NCBI GenBank assembly: GCA_015178975.1
Contig: WHVD01000079.1
Location: 124,001 to 188,000, forward strand
From: Hysterangium stoloniferum
Lineage: Eukaryota > Basidiomycota > Agaricomycetes > Hysterangiales > Hysterangiaceae
Length of the DNA: 64,000 nucleotides
Direction: 5' to 3'
Shown here one piece after another: positions 17,616 to 27,632 of this stretch. Below the pieces are notes generated by a model that was not told where the DNA came from, made no database searches, and was given only the letters and a program-made list of their open reading frames with translations. A program made the position numbers and the translations under genes. Position 1 is the first letter of the stretch; the number at the start of each line of letters is the position of its first letter.

Positions 17616-20510
17616 ATGGAATTTGGAAGCGCTTTTGCTCTTAGTAAACAGGTCAACCCCGCCGTCGACTATGAAGAAATTGACGAAACGGACTATTCCT
17701 CTGGAATTCGTTCTGCAATGGAGCAAAACTATAGCGATAGAGGGGGGGAGACGTGCATTCTAGATATTATTGACACGTCCGTTTTTCAATTAATGGATGA
17801 ACAACTTAATGGATTACTGACCCTACTACTGCAACTATTAGGGCCGGACAAGAGGAATATTCTAGTATGCGTGATCAATACATGCGCACCGCACAAGCTT
17901 TCATGATATTATTTTCAATAACTTCGCGAGTGTCGTTCGAAGAAGCTATCGCAATCTACGAAGTGTGTCTGGACATGGCCAGTGGACGCTTTAGCAACTG
18001 ATTCATGTTATTTTCACAGTTTTGCCGTCGTTTCACCGGGACGCCAGAGGTGCCTGTCGTATTCTGTGCAAACAAGTCTGATCTTGAGTATCAGCGCCAA
18101 GTTGGCGTCTCGGAAGCACGCGCAATGGCGGCGAATTTCGGAGTCCCTCTGTTCGAAACAAGCGCAAAGCTGAGGCAGAACGTTGACGAATCATTTATCA
18201 AACTGGTGCAGATCACTCCCAGAACTGGGTATGAATATAAGATAGCTATCCTTGGCGCTGGAGGGGTGGGCAAGTCTGCCATGACCATCCAGTTTATGCA
18301 GAATCATTTCGTCGACTGTTATGTAGGTCTCTTCCTATGTTTTATTGATACGCTCCATTGATTCAAACTCATCTGGTTATAGGATCCTACAATTGAAGAC
18401 TCGTACAGAAAACAAATGGTCATTCCTGGCCTGCCGCCAATGATGAATTCGAACAAGAAATTGGCGAAGTCTCGTTTACGACCTGCCAGTGCTTCATTCT
18501 CGTCTGCGAATAAGACATCTAATCGATCCTCTGGACTTTTTGCTTCACTTTTTGGGAAGAAGTCCCAATTGTCGTCATCAAGTTCCCTACAGTCATCTTC
18601 GAAATCGCCGTCGCCGCCGCTTCCGACGTACGATGAAGCGAACAGCACAACCGTCGTCGACAAATCCTCGGGAACAGTGCGTAAGTTTCGTAAGGTACCT
18701 AAGAAAGACACCAATATCGTGTTCCTCAACCTTGGATCACTGGCCCCTGAGAACTTCGACATGCTTGAAATAAACTCACTCGCTGCACAGCCTCCGGCCT
18801 GCTCGAACTGTCTAGCAATCCTTTCAACAAGTGCAACTTGTCTGTTTTGCGGTACATATCATGATACTATATCCCAGGACAAGCTTGGAGTCCGAAGAAC
18901 TGCAGAGGAATACACGCTTGTCAGGGATCCCTCCACACTTGTCATGGATGTTAACACTCCTGATACACCCAATTTCGGAGACAAAGCATTAGTAGTGTTT
19001 TGCATTGACATATCTGGATCGAGTAAGTCGTCCTACAGTACATCTCTTTCTCGTCATTAATTACACATTATATCCTATCCCAGTGGCGATTACCCAGCGA
19101 GTCAACGAACTGCAGAGCATGTGGCAGTCAGCCAAAAGCAAGAGCAAGACAAGCAAGATCGACAATAGTTTGGGAACGTCCAAATCCCACGTCAGCCGCC
19201 TAGAATGTATTCAAGATGCTATGCGTGTTCACTTGGATCGCCTTGAGCAATCCTACCCAGATCGCAAAGTTGCCATTGTAGCTTTTCACTCCGCATTGGA
19301 ATGCTATATCGGTGGTGCTGCCCAAGAACTGTCAATCGTAGATACCAGAAATATCGACACCCTGGAGCAAGGCATGCTTGCAGCAAACTCATTCTATGGG
19401 AAGCCTTGGAAGACTGTGAAGGAAAATATCCAATACCTTAGGAGCCATGTAGATCGACTTGAGACTAAAAATGCTACTGCATTAGGTTCGGCATTGGCAT
19501 TTGCCCTTGGTCTTGCTCGGAATCACAAGAGACGGTATTCGGAATCCACAGAAATTTTTGTATGCACCGATGGTGCATCTAATACTGGGATTGGCAACAC
19601 AGATGGTCATCACCGGCAATCTTCTCAAGAGCATGGTCGTAGATTCTATTCTCAAGCGGGGGAAACTGCATTAGGCCAATCCGCGAAAATAAACATTATA
19701 GGTATTGAAGGCGAGGGGGTTGCCCTGGAAGTACTCGCCGTTGCAGCGCAGGTTTCTGGTGGAATTGTGACCACTGTACAACCGGATGGACTGAGACGTG
19801 AACTCCGGGCGGCCTCACAGCGTCGTGTAATTGCTAAAGATCTTGTCGTCAGAATCCACGCCGCCGAGGATTGGGAATTTGCCCCTGATCCTAGGCCAGG
19901 AATTACTGTGACGGGGAATACGCTGACGTACAAAGTCGCCCAGGTGGATGATGAAGCGAACATTGGATTTGCCTTTGGAATGCGATTGGGTGAAAAGCCC
20001 AAGGGGCTGTCAGGCATGATTCCCTTTCAGACACAGATCACATATAAGGACACAAGCACTGGAAATACCAATTTTCGGATTTTGAGTAAGACAATCCCCA
20101 TCACCGCGGATAGAGATGATGCGGAAATGGCTGTAGAGGTTGCCGTTACGGGAACGTATCTACTTCAGCAGACAGCCTATCAAGCCAATCAGATCCTCGT
20201 AAATAACCTGTATTTCAACGACAAGGTTAAAGCTCAAGTGGCCTCATTGAGGGACGCTCTCTATGCGGGTCACCAACTACTCATTCGCGCTGCGAAGACA
20301 ATCGTCCAGCAGGAGGAACTCGGTAATTTTGCCCACGAATGCGCACAACTTGATCATGAGCTGGAACAGATGGCTGCTGGGAGGTTGTACGGAGTCGGCA
20401 GAGACCAAGCGGCCAAGGTGTTTGCCCGGATAGCTGTCTTATCGAGGAATGGCTTATTGGCTGGAAGTAAGAAGATCGGTCAAGTGAAGCGGAGAGAGAT
20501 GGTGAAGTAG
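17616..20510 (+). CDS. Circularly permuted Ras-like GTPase / zinc finger / VWA fusion, copy A
   Basis: Five exons (17616-17776, 17842-17962, 18020-18322, 18383-19022, 19084-20510) give 883 residues. The GTPase motifs run in permuted order: G3 DTAGQ at 53-57, G4 NKSD at 112-115, G5 ETSAK at 140-144, then the P-loop GAGGVGKS at 173-180 and switch I DPTIEDSY at 196-203. All are near-canonical Ras sequences, so GTP binding is likely. A Ser/Pro-rich linker follows, then a zinc finger (Cys335, 338, 348, 351) as in Sec23/24, then a VWA domain with the MIDAS motif DISGS at 404-408 and TDG at 570-572, and a helical C-terminal part. There is no CaaX box or membrane segment. A circularly permuted RAS-like domain (cpRAS) has, to my memory, been reported with scattered distribution. 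Function is unknown; coat- or adaptor-like work on membranes is inference. Confidence 0.9.
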
Positions 20511-20621
20511 CAAATTGGTTAAAGAACTTCGTATGAAAGGTAGCTAGCTCAACAGAGTCCTTACCTTGTATTGCGCAGACATTATTCATCTTTGTATGTA
20601 TCACTCTTTAGCCTATTTCCG

Positions 20622-21110
20622 GGGTGCCGTCAGGATCGACTCCTTTTCAGATACAAATCACGTTTATGGACACACGCACTGGAAACGTCTATATGCGGAT
20701 TTGAGTCAGACAACTCGCATTACAGCGAGCAGAGATCATGCGGAACCTGCTGGAGAGGTTGCCATTACGGGAATGTACCTACTTCAGCAGACAGCCCATC
20801 AAGACAGTCTCAAATCTTCGTATACAACCCAACCTTTAATGGAGGAGTTAAGGTTCAAGTTGTCTCATTGAAGGACGCTCTCTATGCGGGACACCAGTTA
20901 CTCATTTGCGCAGCGAAGTCAATTATCCAGCAGGGGGAACTAGATAATTTTACCCAAGAATGCAAGCAGCTTGAATATGAGCCGGAAAAAAATGTCAGCT
21001 GGACATTTGTAGGCAGGCAGCAGAGATCAAGCCGCCAAGGTGTTAGCCCGTTTGACTGTCTTATCGAGAAATTAGTTGTTGGCTGGAAGCAAGAGGGGGA
21101 ACTCGGTTGA
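20622..21110 (+). pseudogene. Broken C-terminal copy of the GTPase/VWA gene
   Basis: Directly downstream of copy A lies a partial, decayed third copy covering only the C-terminal region after the VWA core. Recognisable blocks are RDHAEPAGEVAITGMYLLQQ (matching [20 protein letters not shown]) and [20 protein letters not shown] (matching [20 protein letters not shown]). The matching blocks lie in different frames, so at least one frameshift is present, and the GTPase, zinc finger and VWA core are absent. It probably arose by tandem duplication of the 3' end of copy A. Confidence 0.85.
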
Positions 21111-21388
21111 TGAACTGCACTTGACAGATACTTATGTACCTTAGACCTTTGCATTTAAAAGGTTATTATTGTAAATATCTCTTTTTAAAGAGATGACGCT
21201 GGTTTAATAAAACATGAACGATCCTGCAGGTAAGCACCTTGTATTTTGGTTGGTACCTCTCACTCGGAGTAATCATGCCTGACGCGTTATGTCACGTGCA
21301 TCGAGTCACGAGGCACAAGTCGCGTTTTTACCGCTTAGCCCAGAGCACAACCAAGCATTGGTAAAATAAGGCTTTGAAGGTTGCATTT

Positions 21389-24300
21389 ATGCCGCTACAG
21401 GTGACATTCACACCAGAAGACGATAACCATATGATTGTTTTTCTAGCTGAGAACTGTCCTTCACCGAAGAGTCGCGCAAATCGTAAAATCTGGCAGCCTT
21501 TGGTCAAAGACAACGATTGGGGTCAGCGACACCCTTTAGAGTCCTGGTTAAATCGATATAAGAATAATCGGGAATACTTTGACCATCAAATTGCAAAGTA
21601 CTCATCGACCAGGCGACGTTCGTTTTCACCGATTATCCCTGTTTCCACACATGGTCAATTTAGTAATAAAGACGACGAGCGGCTTGTGGAGTTTCTGGCC
21701 CAGTATCTATGTGGTCGGAGGAAAAGAAATATTAGCTGGTTGAAACAAACTTTTGTCTACGCCGATATGCTGTGTGCCCATGTAAGCAAACGTGTCTCCA
21801 CTCCTGGCTAAGCTGACTCTCCTCAAGCCTGAGGAATATCCCTGGGCCAAAGCTCACTCTGCTAAGGCGTGGCAAAAGCGATACATCACACATATGGATG
21901 CTTTTAACAAACGTATTAATGATTCGAGGCTACGACTTCAGCATATGCAGCAAAGCGAGCGGGACAGCGATAATTTACAAAACGAAGAGAATGACATGGT
22001 TGGTAATGACGAAGAAGAGAGTGAACAAGACGATGAAGGACATGAGTTAGACTCACGTACGCCTGTCGGGCAAGAATTAAAGCGACAAGCACCTGAAGGT
22101 GCTGACACACTATCAGCCAACCGTAGCTCATCATCAAAAAGACGGAAAATTTTTAACGAGGATGTCAATTTTTTAAAGTCTGCAACTCCCGCACGAAGCA
22201 ATCTGGATTTGGGCCGTAAAACAGGCGACGAGGCGGGAGAGAGCTCGGAGGGGGTCACTGAAATACAACCAGGGAAACCGGCGGCCTCTGAACATCCGGT
22301 AATTGAAGAGATTAGAGGCAGAAAAAATATTAGCGTGCCCAAATCAGGTGATCCGTCAGGGAATTCATCTACATTCTCCGAGGAATCCCCCAGCGAAGCT
22401 TCAGAATTTTCTAAATCGAATGACGAGCATAAAGACCGAGACATAGCCACAATTGCGACTCCAAAATCCCACCCGCCACCGCCATCATTAACACCCATGC
22501 TCTCCGATCAATTTTCTCCGCCAGTTGTCTTGCACCCTGGTGTTGTGTCATGTTCGTCAGAAGGTTTGAGGCCAGATCCAATGCATAATTTCTCTCCATT
22601 ACCATCGCCTGTATCGTCCCAATCCCGCTACCAACCACCTGCGTCCAATGCAAGTGTCCGGGTCCATGCTTCATATGCATACGCGCCATTGCATTTCGTG
22701 AAACAAGCTCAGAGGCATTCACCTTGCTCTGAGAGTGATCCGTTCGCAACATCCCCAGCACACTCTGCACGACCAGCTAATGTCACCTATTGCCTTCCAA
22801 GGCCTCGTTCTGACGCGTCTTTCCGTGATTCAGACCGGGTCAGAGATCGTGTCTACCTACTTGACCAGAAGGTCCAGTATGCGCCTCGGCATAAGCAGCC
22901 TAGTACAGGGGCGACGAATGGACAATCTTCAACAGCATTGCATGGTCAAGAAGAAATAAGAATTGGACGTGAGGCCCCGTCGACAATGGAATCATCGTCC
23001 TCGGGTAATGCTGCGAAAACGTCATCGAACAACCCCCTTTCCACAATGAGTTTTGGTACAGCGACGATAAGACAAGCTGCACAGTCCCCTCTCGGAAACG
23101 ATGTGCGGCGCAGACACAGCGGCACGATCGAATTTTCTGGGTGTAAAAAGGTCTTTACATTCCCCACTGAAATTGTAGAGTTATCTGATATTGTTATGCA
23201 GCCTCCCGCACCTCCTATAGTGCAATCAGTCGAAGTGGAGGTTTCGGGATATCTTATGGAGGAAAATAATATAGGTGCTCCAGACGGCGAGGACCCAGTG
23301 CCAAACACGGATCCATCAGATGTATTCAAGAATACTCCGAGGGTGTCGCGCGATGGCTGTGAGCAATACGCTTTGAAAGCACCCTATTTGCCTGGTCCAA
23401 GTACAGCCTCCTCTGATCAGACCCAGCCAAGCTCACCGACCCCTAGACGAGGCGCTCAACGGGACAAGCTGCGCAGGCGAACATTCAATGGTCTCAAATC
23501 GCGGTCGAGCCTACCTAACATTGATCTTATGGCAAAATTGGGTGAACGCGCATCTACACGCACCCCCGCCTTCAACTGGACTAAGCGTTCTGCTTATGAG
23601 AATAAGTCTCTCGTTTTGCACTCTTCGACTCGTTCACTTCCCGTGAAGACATTGAAAGCAACTCGCCGAACTTCATCACCATCCACAATCGCTCTTCCCT
23701 CTGATTTCGATGATAATGACTTGCCCAAATCGCTTATTGCAATGTCACCATTATCATACAACCATATTTTCAGGACTGGAATCAACACCATTTTGAAACA
23801 ACTAGAGAGCAATCATGGATTCTCTGCTGATGTTATCCGTAGAGCATGGATCTCGCAGAACATGGACCTCCATGCGACAGACAAATTGCTGTTACGTATG
23901 CGAATAGCAGCGGAAAAGGCGTCGCTTATTGAGGACGCGGATGTTTTTCCTGGAGGCATAACGACAGACAGGATCGCAAAAGGCACACACGTAGGCAGCA
24001 GCGGTCAGAACATATCAGTCCTCACGCCTGCCAGCGATGTAGAAAGCGATTACACCCCCCCACCACGCTCTAAAGCTGAAGAATATCGCCGTCTCTCGGC
24101 ACAGGACCGCTTCCCTCGTTTTACACATCAGACAACGACGCCTCACGCAAGTGAATTGGGTACGAGTTCGGGTATGCGGTCTGACGGGGGACATCAGTTC
24201 AGCGGATCCATCCAGCGTATTTCTGTGCAGTCTGATGCTATGGCAAAATTGGTGAGTGCGGCCCCGATGGCCTCCAGTATCACTCCCTTCCCTCGTCCTA

Positions 24301-24542
24301 AGCATCCACCGAAATTAATTTCTACATCTCACGCCAAGCTTCAGCCCGCTGAGACTGGACAACACAGCACGCCAATTAAGCCAGGAACTGCCTCTAAAGC
24401 TGTGAGATCAACCGAGCCGATATGGAGTACTGAGGATGATGATGTGCTGCGTTCAGGAGATACCGCCATGCTGGAGGATCTTGTAACAAAGTTCGGCGAT
24501 GATAATGTCCGACGTAGATTCTTACGTATATTAAGAGAGTAA
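21389..24542 (+). CDS. Rap1-like telomere-associated Myb protein
   Basis: Two exons (21389-21781 and 21828-24542) give about 1035 residues. The N-terminus has a Rap1-type Myb domain (FTPEDDNHMIVFLAEN through HPLESWLNRY), followed by a second similar unit (FSNKDDERLVEFLAQY through WAKAHSAKAWQKRY) that spans the intron. The middle is long, disordered and Ser/Pro-rich with an acidic patch and a basic KRRK. The last residues (LEDLVTKFGDDNVRRRF) resemble the Rap1 C-terminal protein-interaction domain. Rap1 binds shelterin partners or telomeric DNA. No BRCT domain is seen at the start. The intron is drawn as 46 nt with a CTGAC branch site; a shorter 31-nt choice is also in frame. The gene sits between the two inverted GTPase/VWA genes. 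Confidence 0.75.
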
Positions 24543-24721
24543 TTATAAACTATTCCTTTTCTCTTTGATCAATGAAACCATCGGATTATTGCGAGGAACA
24601 ATAAAGCAAAACGTGGTATATGTATACATTGTTGTACAGATATAAAATGTACCCCAAGATTTGAGACATTTGAGACATTTAGGGATATTTAACTATCAAT
24701 CACGTGTCCTTCTTCGCGCAC

Positions 24722-27632
24722 TTACTTGAGCTGTTCCCTTCTCTTCACTTGACCAGTCTTTCTCCTCCCGGCTAATATGCTATTCCTTGACAAAGTCGCG
24801 ATTCGTGCAAACACCTTAGCCGCCTGATCTCTGCTGCTGCCGTACATCCTCCCCTTAGCCATTTCTTCTAGCTCATGATCGAGCTGTGTGCACTCGTAAG
24901 TAAAGTTCCCAAGCTCTTCCTGTTGGGTGTTCGTCTTCGCTGCACGAATGAGCAATTGATGGCCAGCGTAGAGTTCATCCCTCAATGAACCGACTTGAGC
25001 TTTAACCGCCTCACTGAAGTTCATATTACTTATAAGGACCAGGTTAGCTTCATAGGCAATTTTTTGAAGTAAGTGTGTTCCTGTGAGTGCAACCTCTGCA
25101 GCGGCTTCGGCGTGCTCCCTATCTGCAGTGACTGGGATTGATTTACTCAATATCCGCACGTTAACGTTACCCGTGCTGACGTCTGTATATGTGATCTGTG
25201 TTTGGAAGGGCACCATCCCAGACAGTGCACGACGCTTTCCAATCTCTTGTAGTCCGAAGGCGAATCCTATGTTCGACTCGTCATCGACCTTGGCAACTTT
25301 GTATGTCAATGTGTTTCCAGTCACAGTAAAACCCGGCCTAGGATCAGGCGCAAATGACCAATCCTTAGGCGCATGAACCCTCACGAGTAGATCTTTGGCA
25401 ATCACACGACGTTGTGCCGCCGCCCGAATTTCACGTGTCAATTCGTCCGGTTGTATGGTGGTGACCACGCCGCCAGACACCTGTGCTGCGACGGCAAGAA
25501 CGTCTAGCGCGACCCCCTCCCCTTCAATGCCTATGATATTGATTTTGGCGGATTGGCCTAGTGCAACTTCCCCTGCCTGCGAATAGAATTTACTACCATG
25601 CCCTTGGAAGGGTCGCTGGAAGGATTGGTGGTCATTTGTGTTGCCAATCCCCGTATTAGACGCGCCATCGGTGCATATAAAAATTTCTGTGGATGCCATA
25701 TGTTGTAACTTGTGATTCCGGGCAAGACCAAGGGCAAATGCCAACGCTGAACCTAATGTAGTGGCACCTTTAGTTTTGAGTTGATTTACATGCCTCGAGA
25801 GATCTTGGATATTCTCTTTTACAGTTGCCCATGGTTTCCCGCAGAAAGCGTCCGCCGCAGCCATGCCTTGCTGGAGATTATGAATATCGTTTGTATTGAT
25901 AATGGCCAACTCCTGGTCAGCATGACCCGTGTAGCACTCCAAATGGTTGTGAAAAGCGACAATGACAACTCTTCGATTCGGATAGAACTTCTCAAGGCGG
26001 TCCAAATTAACACGCACCGCATCCTGGATGCATTCCAGGCGGCTGACAGATGTTTTGGTGCCATAAGGGGCTGTAGTGGAACTTTTAGCCATGTATGTCG
26101 TATTTGTGTTGCTCTGTAGCGAGTGCCATAGGGTCTGTAACTGGTTGACTCTTTGAGTGATCCCCACTGATATCTACCTTTAGACATGGATGAGGACACA
26201 TAATTGAAATTAACTCACTGGATCCTGATACATCTATGCAAAATACGACCAGATTATTGTCTCGGAAACCGCTTTGAGAAAGACCTGCGGTAGCACTGTC
26301 AAGTGACAAGGATCCTTTGACGAGCGTATATTCCTCCGTAGTCCTTCTAGGTTCAAGTTGACTGGAAGATAGTGTGGAATGATATGTCCCACAGAAAAAA
26401 CACGTTTCACTCGTTGAAAGAGTTGTGAGACATTGCGAGCAAGTGGGAGGAGGTGCGTTTAATGAGTTTATTTCTAGCATGTCGAAATTCTCGGGAGACA
26501 GAGAACCGAGAGAGAGGAATACTAAATTCGTATCTTTCTTGGGTACCCTACGGTGCTTTCGTACAGTGCCAGATACTTTGTCCACAACAGTTGTGCTATT
26601 CGCTTCGCGGTATGAGGGTGGGTGGGTGGTCGGCGGGGAAGATGACGCTAATGCTGCTGATTGGAATTTCTTACCAAAAAGTGATGAAAAAAACCCTGAA
26701 GCACGTTTCATGGATTTGGAAGCAGATACTGACGGCAAACTTGCTGATCGAGAATGAGGTTTCATGGACGTCTCTGTATTCGAAGTGGCCGCGATGGTCC
26801 ACTAGGAAGACCAGGTATGCGCATCTGCTTTCTGAAACTGTCCTCTATGGTAGGATCCTATATTTAAAGTAGAAAATTGGAATGAATAAGTCTAATCAAG
26901 ATGGGTAATCTGGCCCGGAAATATACTCACATAGGATTCCACAAAAGCACTCAGAACGAATTGAGTGGTAATGGCAGTCTTGCCCACGCCCCCATCACCA
27001 ATGACAGCTATTTTATATTCATATCCAGTTCGGGGTGTAATCTGAACCAGTTTGATAAATGCTGCCTCGATATTCTGCCCTGTTTTCGCGCTAGTCTCGA
27101 ACAAGGGAACCCCAAGCGTTGCAGCCATTGCTTGAGCTTCAGCTGAACTGACTTGCCGTTCGTATGTCAGATCTGCCTTGTTCGCACAAATCACGACAGG
27201 CATGTTTGATGATTCACGAATTCGACAGCAGAACTGGACATGTACACCATGTCTATGAATCATACAGAGAGTTCAAGGTGTCAAAGCAACGCACCTGATG
27301 ATATACCTCCACTCGTTCGAACGTGTGTCGAGATTTTAGTGAAAAAACAATGATACACGCTTGTGCGGTGCGCATGTACCGGTCGCGCAAGCTTGAGTAC
27401 TCTTCTTGTCCAGCCCTATGAAAACATTCGGTCAAAGTGTGAGGCGGAAATGCCAGCATTGGAGCACTGACGTGTCAATAATGTCCAACATGCACATATC
27501 GTCGCCTCTTGCGTCATAACTCTGTACTAATGCTGTTTGTACTCCAGCCGAATAATCTGTGTCGTCGATTTCTTCATAGTCAATTGTTGGGTTTACCCGT
27601 TTACTGAGAGCGAAGGCACTTCCAAATTCCAT
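24722..27632 (-). CDS. Circularly permuted Ras-like GTPase / zinc finger / VWA fusion, copy B
   Basis: Inverted paralogue of copy A. Exons are 27632-27472, 27415-27295, 27233-26931, 26857-26219 and 26166-24722; the first three have exactly the lengths of copy A (161, 121, 303). Motif order is again G3 (DTAGQ), G4 (NKAD), G5 (ETSAK), then P-loop GDGGVGKT and switch I DPTIEDSF. The zinc finger (CSQC, CFFC) and the MIDAS motif DVSGS with TDG are kept. In exon 4, just after switch I, the frame holds only if an extra intron of 38 or 29 nt (ending near 26780) is removed; with either, the total divides by three (876 or 879 residues). Otherwise it would be a frameshift. The linker has a PPSY motif, a possible WW-domain ligand. 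Confidence 0.87.

Follow-up and report, generated by a model that had tools for sequence, protein, structure and literature searches.

The 64,000-nucleotide stretch of a Hysterangium stoloniferum contig analysed here (the window) carries two paralogous genes, A and B, inverted relative to each other (Table 1). The predicted proteins combine a Ras-type GTPase domain in permuted order, a four-cysteine finger and a VWA domain with MIDAS residues, an arrangement proposed in a first-pass annotation of the DNA and borne out in both paralogues by Pfam, the match to KRAS and the motifs. The starts given there (17616 on the plus strand, 27632 on the minus strand) agree with the coordinates. The coding frame of gene A runs without a stop across all five exons. 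All four intron places are common to the two genes, and the eight introns are 52-73 nt long with GT/AG ends, including a weak donor in intron 1 of gene A (GTCCGT). Over the N-terminal 212 residues the proteins are 67% identical, and over the C-terminal half 70%.

Table 1. Features of the two CPRas1-type genes and of sequences associated with them; positions are those of the window.
Feature	Position	Strand	Remarks
Gene A, CPRas1-type	17616-20510	+	883 aa, 5 exons; ORF/splice reading
Gene A exons	17616-17776, 17842-17962, 18020-18322, 18383-19022, 19084-20510	+	last exon includes stop
Gene A N-terminal lead	17616-17744	+	residues 1-43; 30/43 identical with B
Gene A permuted Ras domain	17745-18430	+	residues 44-211; introns 1-3 included
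Gene A DTAGQ	17772-17851	+	spans intron 1
Gene A NKSD	18071-18082	+	
Gene A ETSAK	18155-18169	+	
Gene A joint ITPRTGY	18212-18232	+	helix 5 to strand 1
Gene A GAGGVGKS	18254-18277	+	
Gene A YDPTIEDSY	18320-18406	+	spans intron 3
Gene A four-cysteine finger	18800-18850	+	Cx2C-x9-Cx2C
Gene A VWA, MIDAS motif 1 to TDG	19007-19574	+	intron 4 within
Gene A MIDAS motifs	DISGS 19007-19021, NATALGS 19470-19490, TDG 19566-19574	+	
Gene A C-terminal part	19818-20507	+	beta-rich then helical; low-confidence model
Derelict third copy of 3' end	20623-21094	+	nucleotide identity 77.0% to A over 473 columns, 66.3% to B over 412
Gene B, paralogue of A	27632-24722	-	
Gene B exons	27632-27472, 27415-27295, 27233-26931, 26857-26219, 26166-24722	-	fourth exon contains frame break
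Gene B N-terminal lead	27632-27504	-	residues 1-43
Gene B permuted Ras domain	27503-26813	-	introns 1-3 included; end approximate
Gene B DTAGQ	27476-27406	-	
Gene B NKAD	27182-27171	-	
Gene B ETSAK	27098-27084	-	
Gene B joint ITPRTGY	27041-27021	-	
Gene B GDGGVGKT	26999-26976	-	
Gene B YDPTIEDSF	26933-26834	-	
Gene B candidate extra intron	26802-26744	-	59 nt; weak donor, length like other introns
Gene B four-cysteine finger	26441-26391	-	
Gene B VWA, MIDAS motif 1 to TDG	26234-25664	-	last intron within
Gene B MIDAS motifs	DVSGS 26234-26220, GATTLGS 25768-25748, TDG 25672-25664	-	

Pfam Ras matches the N-terminal regions in two stretches (E = 3.2e-44 and 150.8 bits for A, 2.3e-45 and 154.5 bits for B). 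A search of the PDB with A returned 791 distinct sequences at E <= 0.001, headed by KRAS (E = 2.9e-49). KRAS residues 48-161 correspond to residues 44-158 of A and KRAS 3-48 to residues 166-211, i.e., in permuted order (KRAS numbering is shifted for one additional residue at the chain start). Both KRAS halves end at Gly48; thus the cut is placed in the beta2-beta3 turn, between switch I and the G3 strand, where the annotation had put it. The motif order it read, G3-G4-G5-G1-G2, holds for both genes by motif positions, Pfam and the KRAS alignment. When the halves are put back in order, identity to KRAS over 160 positions is 58.8% for A and 48.8% for B. Both proteins keep Gly12, Lys16, Thr35, Asp57, Gly60, Gln61, Asn116, Asp119 and Ala146 of KRAS; at 39 KRAS positions compared, A deviates at one (76) and B at five (11, 17, 30, 40 and 76). 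The effector loop YDPTIEDSY of A is identical to that of KRAS, and the RAS-family G2 motif TIE is present in both proteins (DPTIED). A seven-residue joint, ITPRTGY, ties helix 5 to strand 1 in both. The GTPase probably folds as one Ras domain that binds and hydrolyses GTP. A structure model of exon 3 (A aligned with B) is of low confidence (pLDDT 48.7), renders part of helix 5 as a strand and is given no weight here.

A P-loop exon derived from a different, normally ordered Ras gene is countered by the gene structure: the P-loop, NKxD and ETSAK lie in one uninterrupted exon (18020-18322 in A, 27233-26931 in B). With G4, G5 and G1 in a single exon of both genes, the permutation is not made by splicing. 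The N-terminal lead is distinct, as the annotation held, and is 43 residues long in both genes rather than about 50. Alone it matched no Pfam family; the Ras match of A starts at residue 26, and gene B has a weak ATP_bind_1 match from residue 13 (19.9 bits against a cut-off of 27). Pfam RsgA_GTPase scores 16.7 bits in A, below its 30-bit cut-off, and 33.6 bits in B, above it. The YRG/YlqF/RsgA GTPases are likewise circularly permuted, but in the order G4-G5-G1-G2-G3 (excerpts of PMC2430557). Unlike canonical KRAS, A and B have their termini at the beta2-beta3 turn, and A carries about 670 further residues. A CaaX motif, also a feature of canonical KRAS, was found at the ends of neither the gene A nor the gene B protein, so membrane attachment, if any, would require a partner.

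In the C-terminal half, four cysteines (putatively zinc-binding) precede the VWA domain in both genes. Pfam VWA_2 is matched with E values of 2.8e-7 (A) and 8.4e-7 (B), and the MIDAS DxSxS, T and D residues are present in both, from which metal binding is predicted. The best of the cobalt/magnesium chelatase models given by NCBIfam reach 3.1e-7 and 0.0019, well under the cut-offs in the member shown.

In exon 4 of gene B the frame of DPTIEDS hits a stop at codon 32, and the finger region is in a different frame. The break falls in the linker, between GTPase and finger; the figure of 883 aa applies to A alone. In the second-frame portion of the linker, A has the same residue at 41 of 62 aligned positions, and this stretch thus looks coding. 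Nineteen GT-AG candidates would reopen the frame, one of which is listed in Table 1. The break could stem from an additional intron, from a frameshift or from an error in sequencing, and gene B may be broken. The linker from GTPase to finger is roughly 90 residues long. Short motifs occupy equivalent positions within it, LPTY in A (18620-18631) and PPSY in B (26610-26621), each followed by a conserved 10-residue block. Motifs of this type bind WW domains of Nedd4/Rsp5, and LPTY and PPSY look like WW-domain ligands.

The first-pass annotation left open whether the full architecture had been described. It had: Elias and Novotny 2008 report proteins with the same cut, a lead, a four-cysteine finger and a VWA domain (excerpts of PMC2430557). 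The CPRas1/cpRAS-VWA proteins share with A and B the motif order, the cut between strands 2 and 3, TIE, a lead (40-66 residues), a poorly conserved linker, the four-cysteine finger, VWA and the overall length (840-970 aa), as far as the excerpts go. What sets this locus apart is that its two paralogues are inverted and accompanied by a derelict fragment. The architecture is therefore not new; A and B are new members of the rare, uncharacterised CPRas1 family. In mushroom genomes, automated annotation employs the label 'circularly permutated Ras protein 1'.

The members named in 2008 come from Branchiostoma, Strongylocentrotus, Amphimedon, Monosiga, Capsaspora, Acanthamoeba, Naegleria and Dictyostelium; the finger is missing in the Acanthamoeba member, and Naegleria CPRas bears a C-terminal RING (excerpts of PMC2430557). 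The same excerpts leave the function of cpRAS-VWA open and propose an early origin with repeated loss. Excerpts of PMC5125639 cite the family as patchily distributed; in partial texts of other papers it appears through the cpRAS paper in a reference list (PMC8296547) and in table entries (PMC3505798, PMC4082629). The available part of PMC2430557 contains none of the words fungi, fungal or fungus, and a literature search on cpRAS gave no title on fungal cpRAS among the matches listed. With no fungus mentioned in that part of the 2008 text, a fungal member would bear on whether the family arose early and was lost repeatedly. As a natural circular permutation of a Ras-type switch, cpRAS is rare; two copies in one fungus could open the way to knock-outs and biochemistry, and would test whether a Ras domain can function when its termini lie in the interswitch, a permutation that Anand and colleagues expected to impair folding (excerpts of PMC2430557).

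No relative was confirmed in viral contigs searched with the C-terminal half, the N-terminal part and the joint, or in genome contigs searched with the C-terminal half and the G3-to-G4 segment; the peptide patterns used for searching often lay outside the G motifs, so that these negatives are weak. By tblastn there was no match of the C-terminal half in plasmids or of the N-terminal part in phages. One of the two members matched one unnamed PHROGs family (E = 0.061). With no relative in the searched collections, conservation is judged from the two paralogues and the 2008 text.

Between A and B, dS values per segment (Nei-Gojobori) are 2.98 for the lead, 2.17 for the GTPase, 2.39 for the linker, 1.56 for the finger region, 1.10 for VWA and 1.99 for the C-terminus, figures near saturation and hence rough. 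Over the six segments dN is 0.16-0.30, highest in the linker (0.30), and dN/dS is 0.06-0.17. The comparison indicates purifying selection, and near-saturated synonymous sites together with a conserved protein in all six segments speak against an assembly artefact. The joint sits in an 18-residue run that is identical in A and B, the longest of the N-terminal 212 residues (the next is 14), with 12 of its 18 codons identical; the run is not unique protein-wide, as the C-terminal half has an identical run of 20. The joint is absent from ordinary Ras, yet identical in the two sequences compared, which suggests selection for the permuted form as such.

Four-fold sites differ less between the genes over residues 530-609 of A (19446-19685), with 5/17, 4/15 and 6/16 differences compared with 14/21 and 10/14 elsewhere, but residues 450-489 (4/12) and 690-729 (5/13) are low too. 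Gene conversion between A and B in residues 530-609 is possible.

The best explanation of these data, which we hold to be somewhat on the probable side, is that A and B are CPRas1-type proteins with a Ras domain cut at beta2-beta3, fused to and coupled with a finger, a VWA domain and a C-terminal part. In such a protein Ras would be opened at the beta2-beta3 turn, and helix 5 rejoined to strand 1 via the joint. Strand 3, which leads into switch II, would tether the lead, and strand 2, which leads out of switch I, would tether the C-terminal module. The nucleotide state would shift or free the finger/VWA module in cis, and this module would bind a partner in one nucleotide state only. The attachment of the lead and the C-terminal module alike at the interswitch turn suggests switch-coupled control of that module. 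Taken by itself, such control by the nucleotide state is a tentative and rather doubtful proposal, and the length of the linker would weaken any rigid coupling. Toggling of the interswitch, a feature of Arf, is not known for Ras. In Arf/Arl/Sar GTPases the beta2-beta3 region slides in front-to-back communication (excerpts of PMC3012027), and an allosteric helix of MglB docks on MglA at the beta2-beta3 loop and helix 5 (excerpts of PMC6785124).

The strongest rival, though an unlikely one, is that the parts act independently, with an ordinary Ras switch beside a separate scaffold and the permutation a neutral relic of tandem duplication that plays no mechanical role. The long linker, poorly conserved in the excerpts of PMC2430557 and with the highest dN of the segments here, points this way, as does the effector loop that A shares with KRAS. 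Excerpts of the 2008 paper also lean to neutrality of surviving permutations (PMC2430557). Against this reading stands the position of the joint in the longest identical N-terminal block of the two sequences compared.

It is improbable that the proteins are coat-like sorting adaptors, a reading close to the sorting or adaptor device suggested in the first-pass annotation, in which a Sec23/24-core-like C-terminal half would bind cargo or another coat subunit, with the fused GTPase taking the place of a separate Sar1-type GTPase. The Pfam label reported in the 2008 excerpts, Sec23/Sec24 trunk (PF04811; PMC2430557), favours this reading; for A and B, current Pfam gives VWA_2 instead. These excerpts use Sec23 trunk and VWA as names of one domain, and PF04811 is thus not defining. 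Also in its favour is an AlphaFold model of exon 5 (two sequences, A and B), of low confidence (pLDDT 41.7), in which the VWA domain is followed by seven strands and, after these, by four long helices. Foldseek with this model placed chains of 8S05 (ArnAB) at ranks 1 and 2 (E = 5.6e-5 and 5.9e-5) and 5A8J (ArnE) at rank 6 (E = 0.017) among 1059 matches at E <= 10. The layout of ArnB is said to equal the Sec23/24 core (excerpts of PMC12852372). TM-scores of these ArnAB and 5A8J matches are 0.12-0.14, however, and unrelated chains (ion channels and a modelled complex) fill ranks 3-5.

Sequence comparison speaks against the coat-like adaptor, and the 'Sec23/24-like' label of the first-pass annotation found no support. 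Pfam at E up to 10 lists VWA_2 and VWA and no Sec23/24 family in the C-terminal half (HMMER filters discard the majority of weak matches), an hhalign comparison with Sec23 of human and yeast yields probabilities of 1.2% and 1.3% (two-sequence profiles, of low power), and gelsolin has no Pfam match in A or B. Sec23/24 membership by sequence is rejected on the Pfam and hhalign results. The finger of A and B is Cx2C-x9-Cx2C, compared with Cx4C-x18-Cx2C in human Sec23A (our own assignment), and the MIDAS is intact where Sec23 has DTCMED.

The resemblance of the C-terminal half to the archaeal ArnB core is a low-confidence one that we treat as a lead, not as membership. Like A and B, ArnA/ArnB have a ribbon-type finger and a VWA domain with MIDAS, followed by beta-rich and helical parts such as the low-confidence exon 5 model predicts here; cysteines 21, 24, 35 and 38 of ArnA are spaced similarly to the finger here (excerpts of PMC12852372). 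Unlike A and B, they are two proteins, have an FHA domain and lack a GTPase. ArnA/ArnB gave no significant sequence match to the C-terminal half of A or B (PDB sequence profile, Pfam); the C-terminal-half profile found one match among PDB sequences (E = 0.75). A more specific version of the coupling has the permutation itself as the mechanism: strands 2 and 3 would tether a module resembling the Sec23/24 core and ArnB, and one chain would then serve as a coat or adaptor subunit with its own GTPase, driven by an Arf-like interswitch movement within a Ras-family domain. We give this version a slim chance; its odds are kept low since the Sec23/24-like part comes from one low-confidence model.

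A GTP-switched ubiquitin-ligase adaptor, in which a WAV3-like module recruits a ligase via the linker or a RING partner, is similarly a long shot. WAV3 E3 ubiquitin ligases are reported as the closest structural matches of ArnB outside archaea (excerpts of PMC12852372). The C-terminal RING of Naegleria CPRas would fit such a function, but Pfam finds no RING in A or B; LPTY and PPSY at equivalent linker positions would fit it also, but four-residue motifs often arise by chance in Ser/Pro-rich linkers. Misassembly or a merging of exons from two genes, which the frame break of gene B and exon joins read from DNA alone might suggest, is rejected as having negligible probability, given the same order in two copies with dS near saturation, the uninterrupted G4-G5-G1 exon of both genes and the published proteins of the same architecture (excerpts of PMC2430557).

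The derelict copy lies directly downstream of A, contains stops and frame changes, and is nearer to A than to B. The inverted paralogues flank a Rap1-type gene (21365-24542) with Myb_Rap1 and Rap1_C matches. The Rfam scan of the window had no family reaching threshold. Eight of ten neighbouring stretches (counting a second eIF2A piece) have matches, namely Rap1-like, PP2C, eIF2A, sugar transporter, F-box-like and polysaccharide lyase 14, and two are without a match. Together with the short introns, this set of neighbours has a fungal look. Also present, at 1425-1997 on the minus strand, is an open frame made up of the short repeat KVETT/EKVETT.
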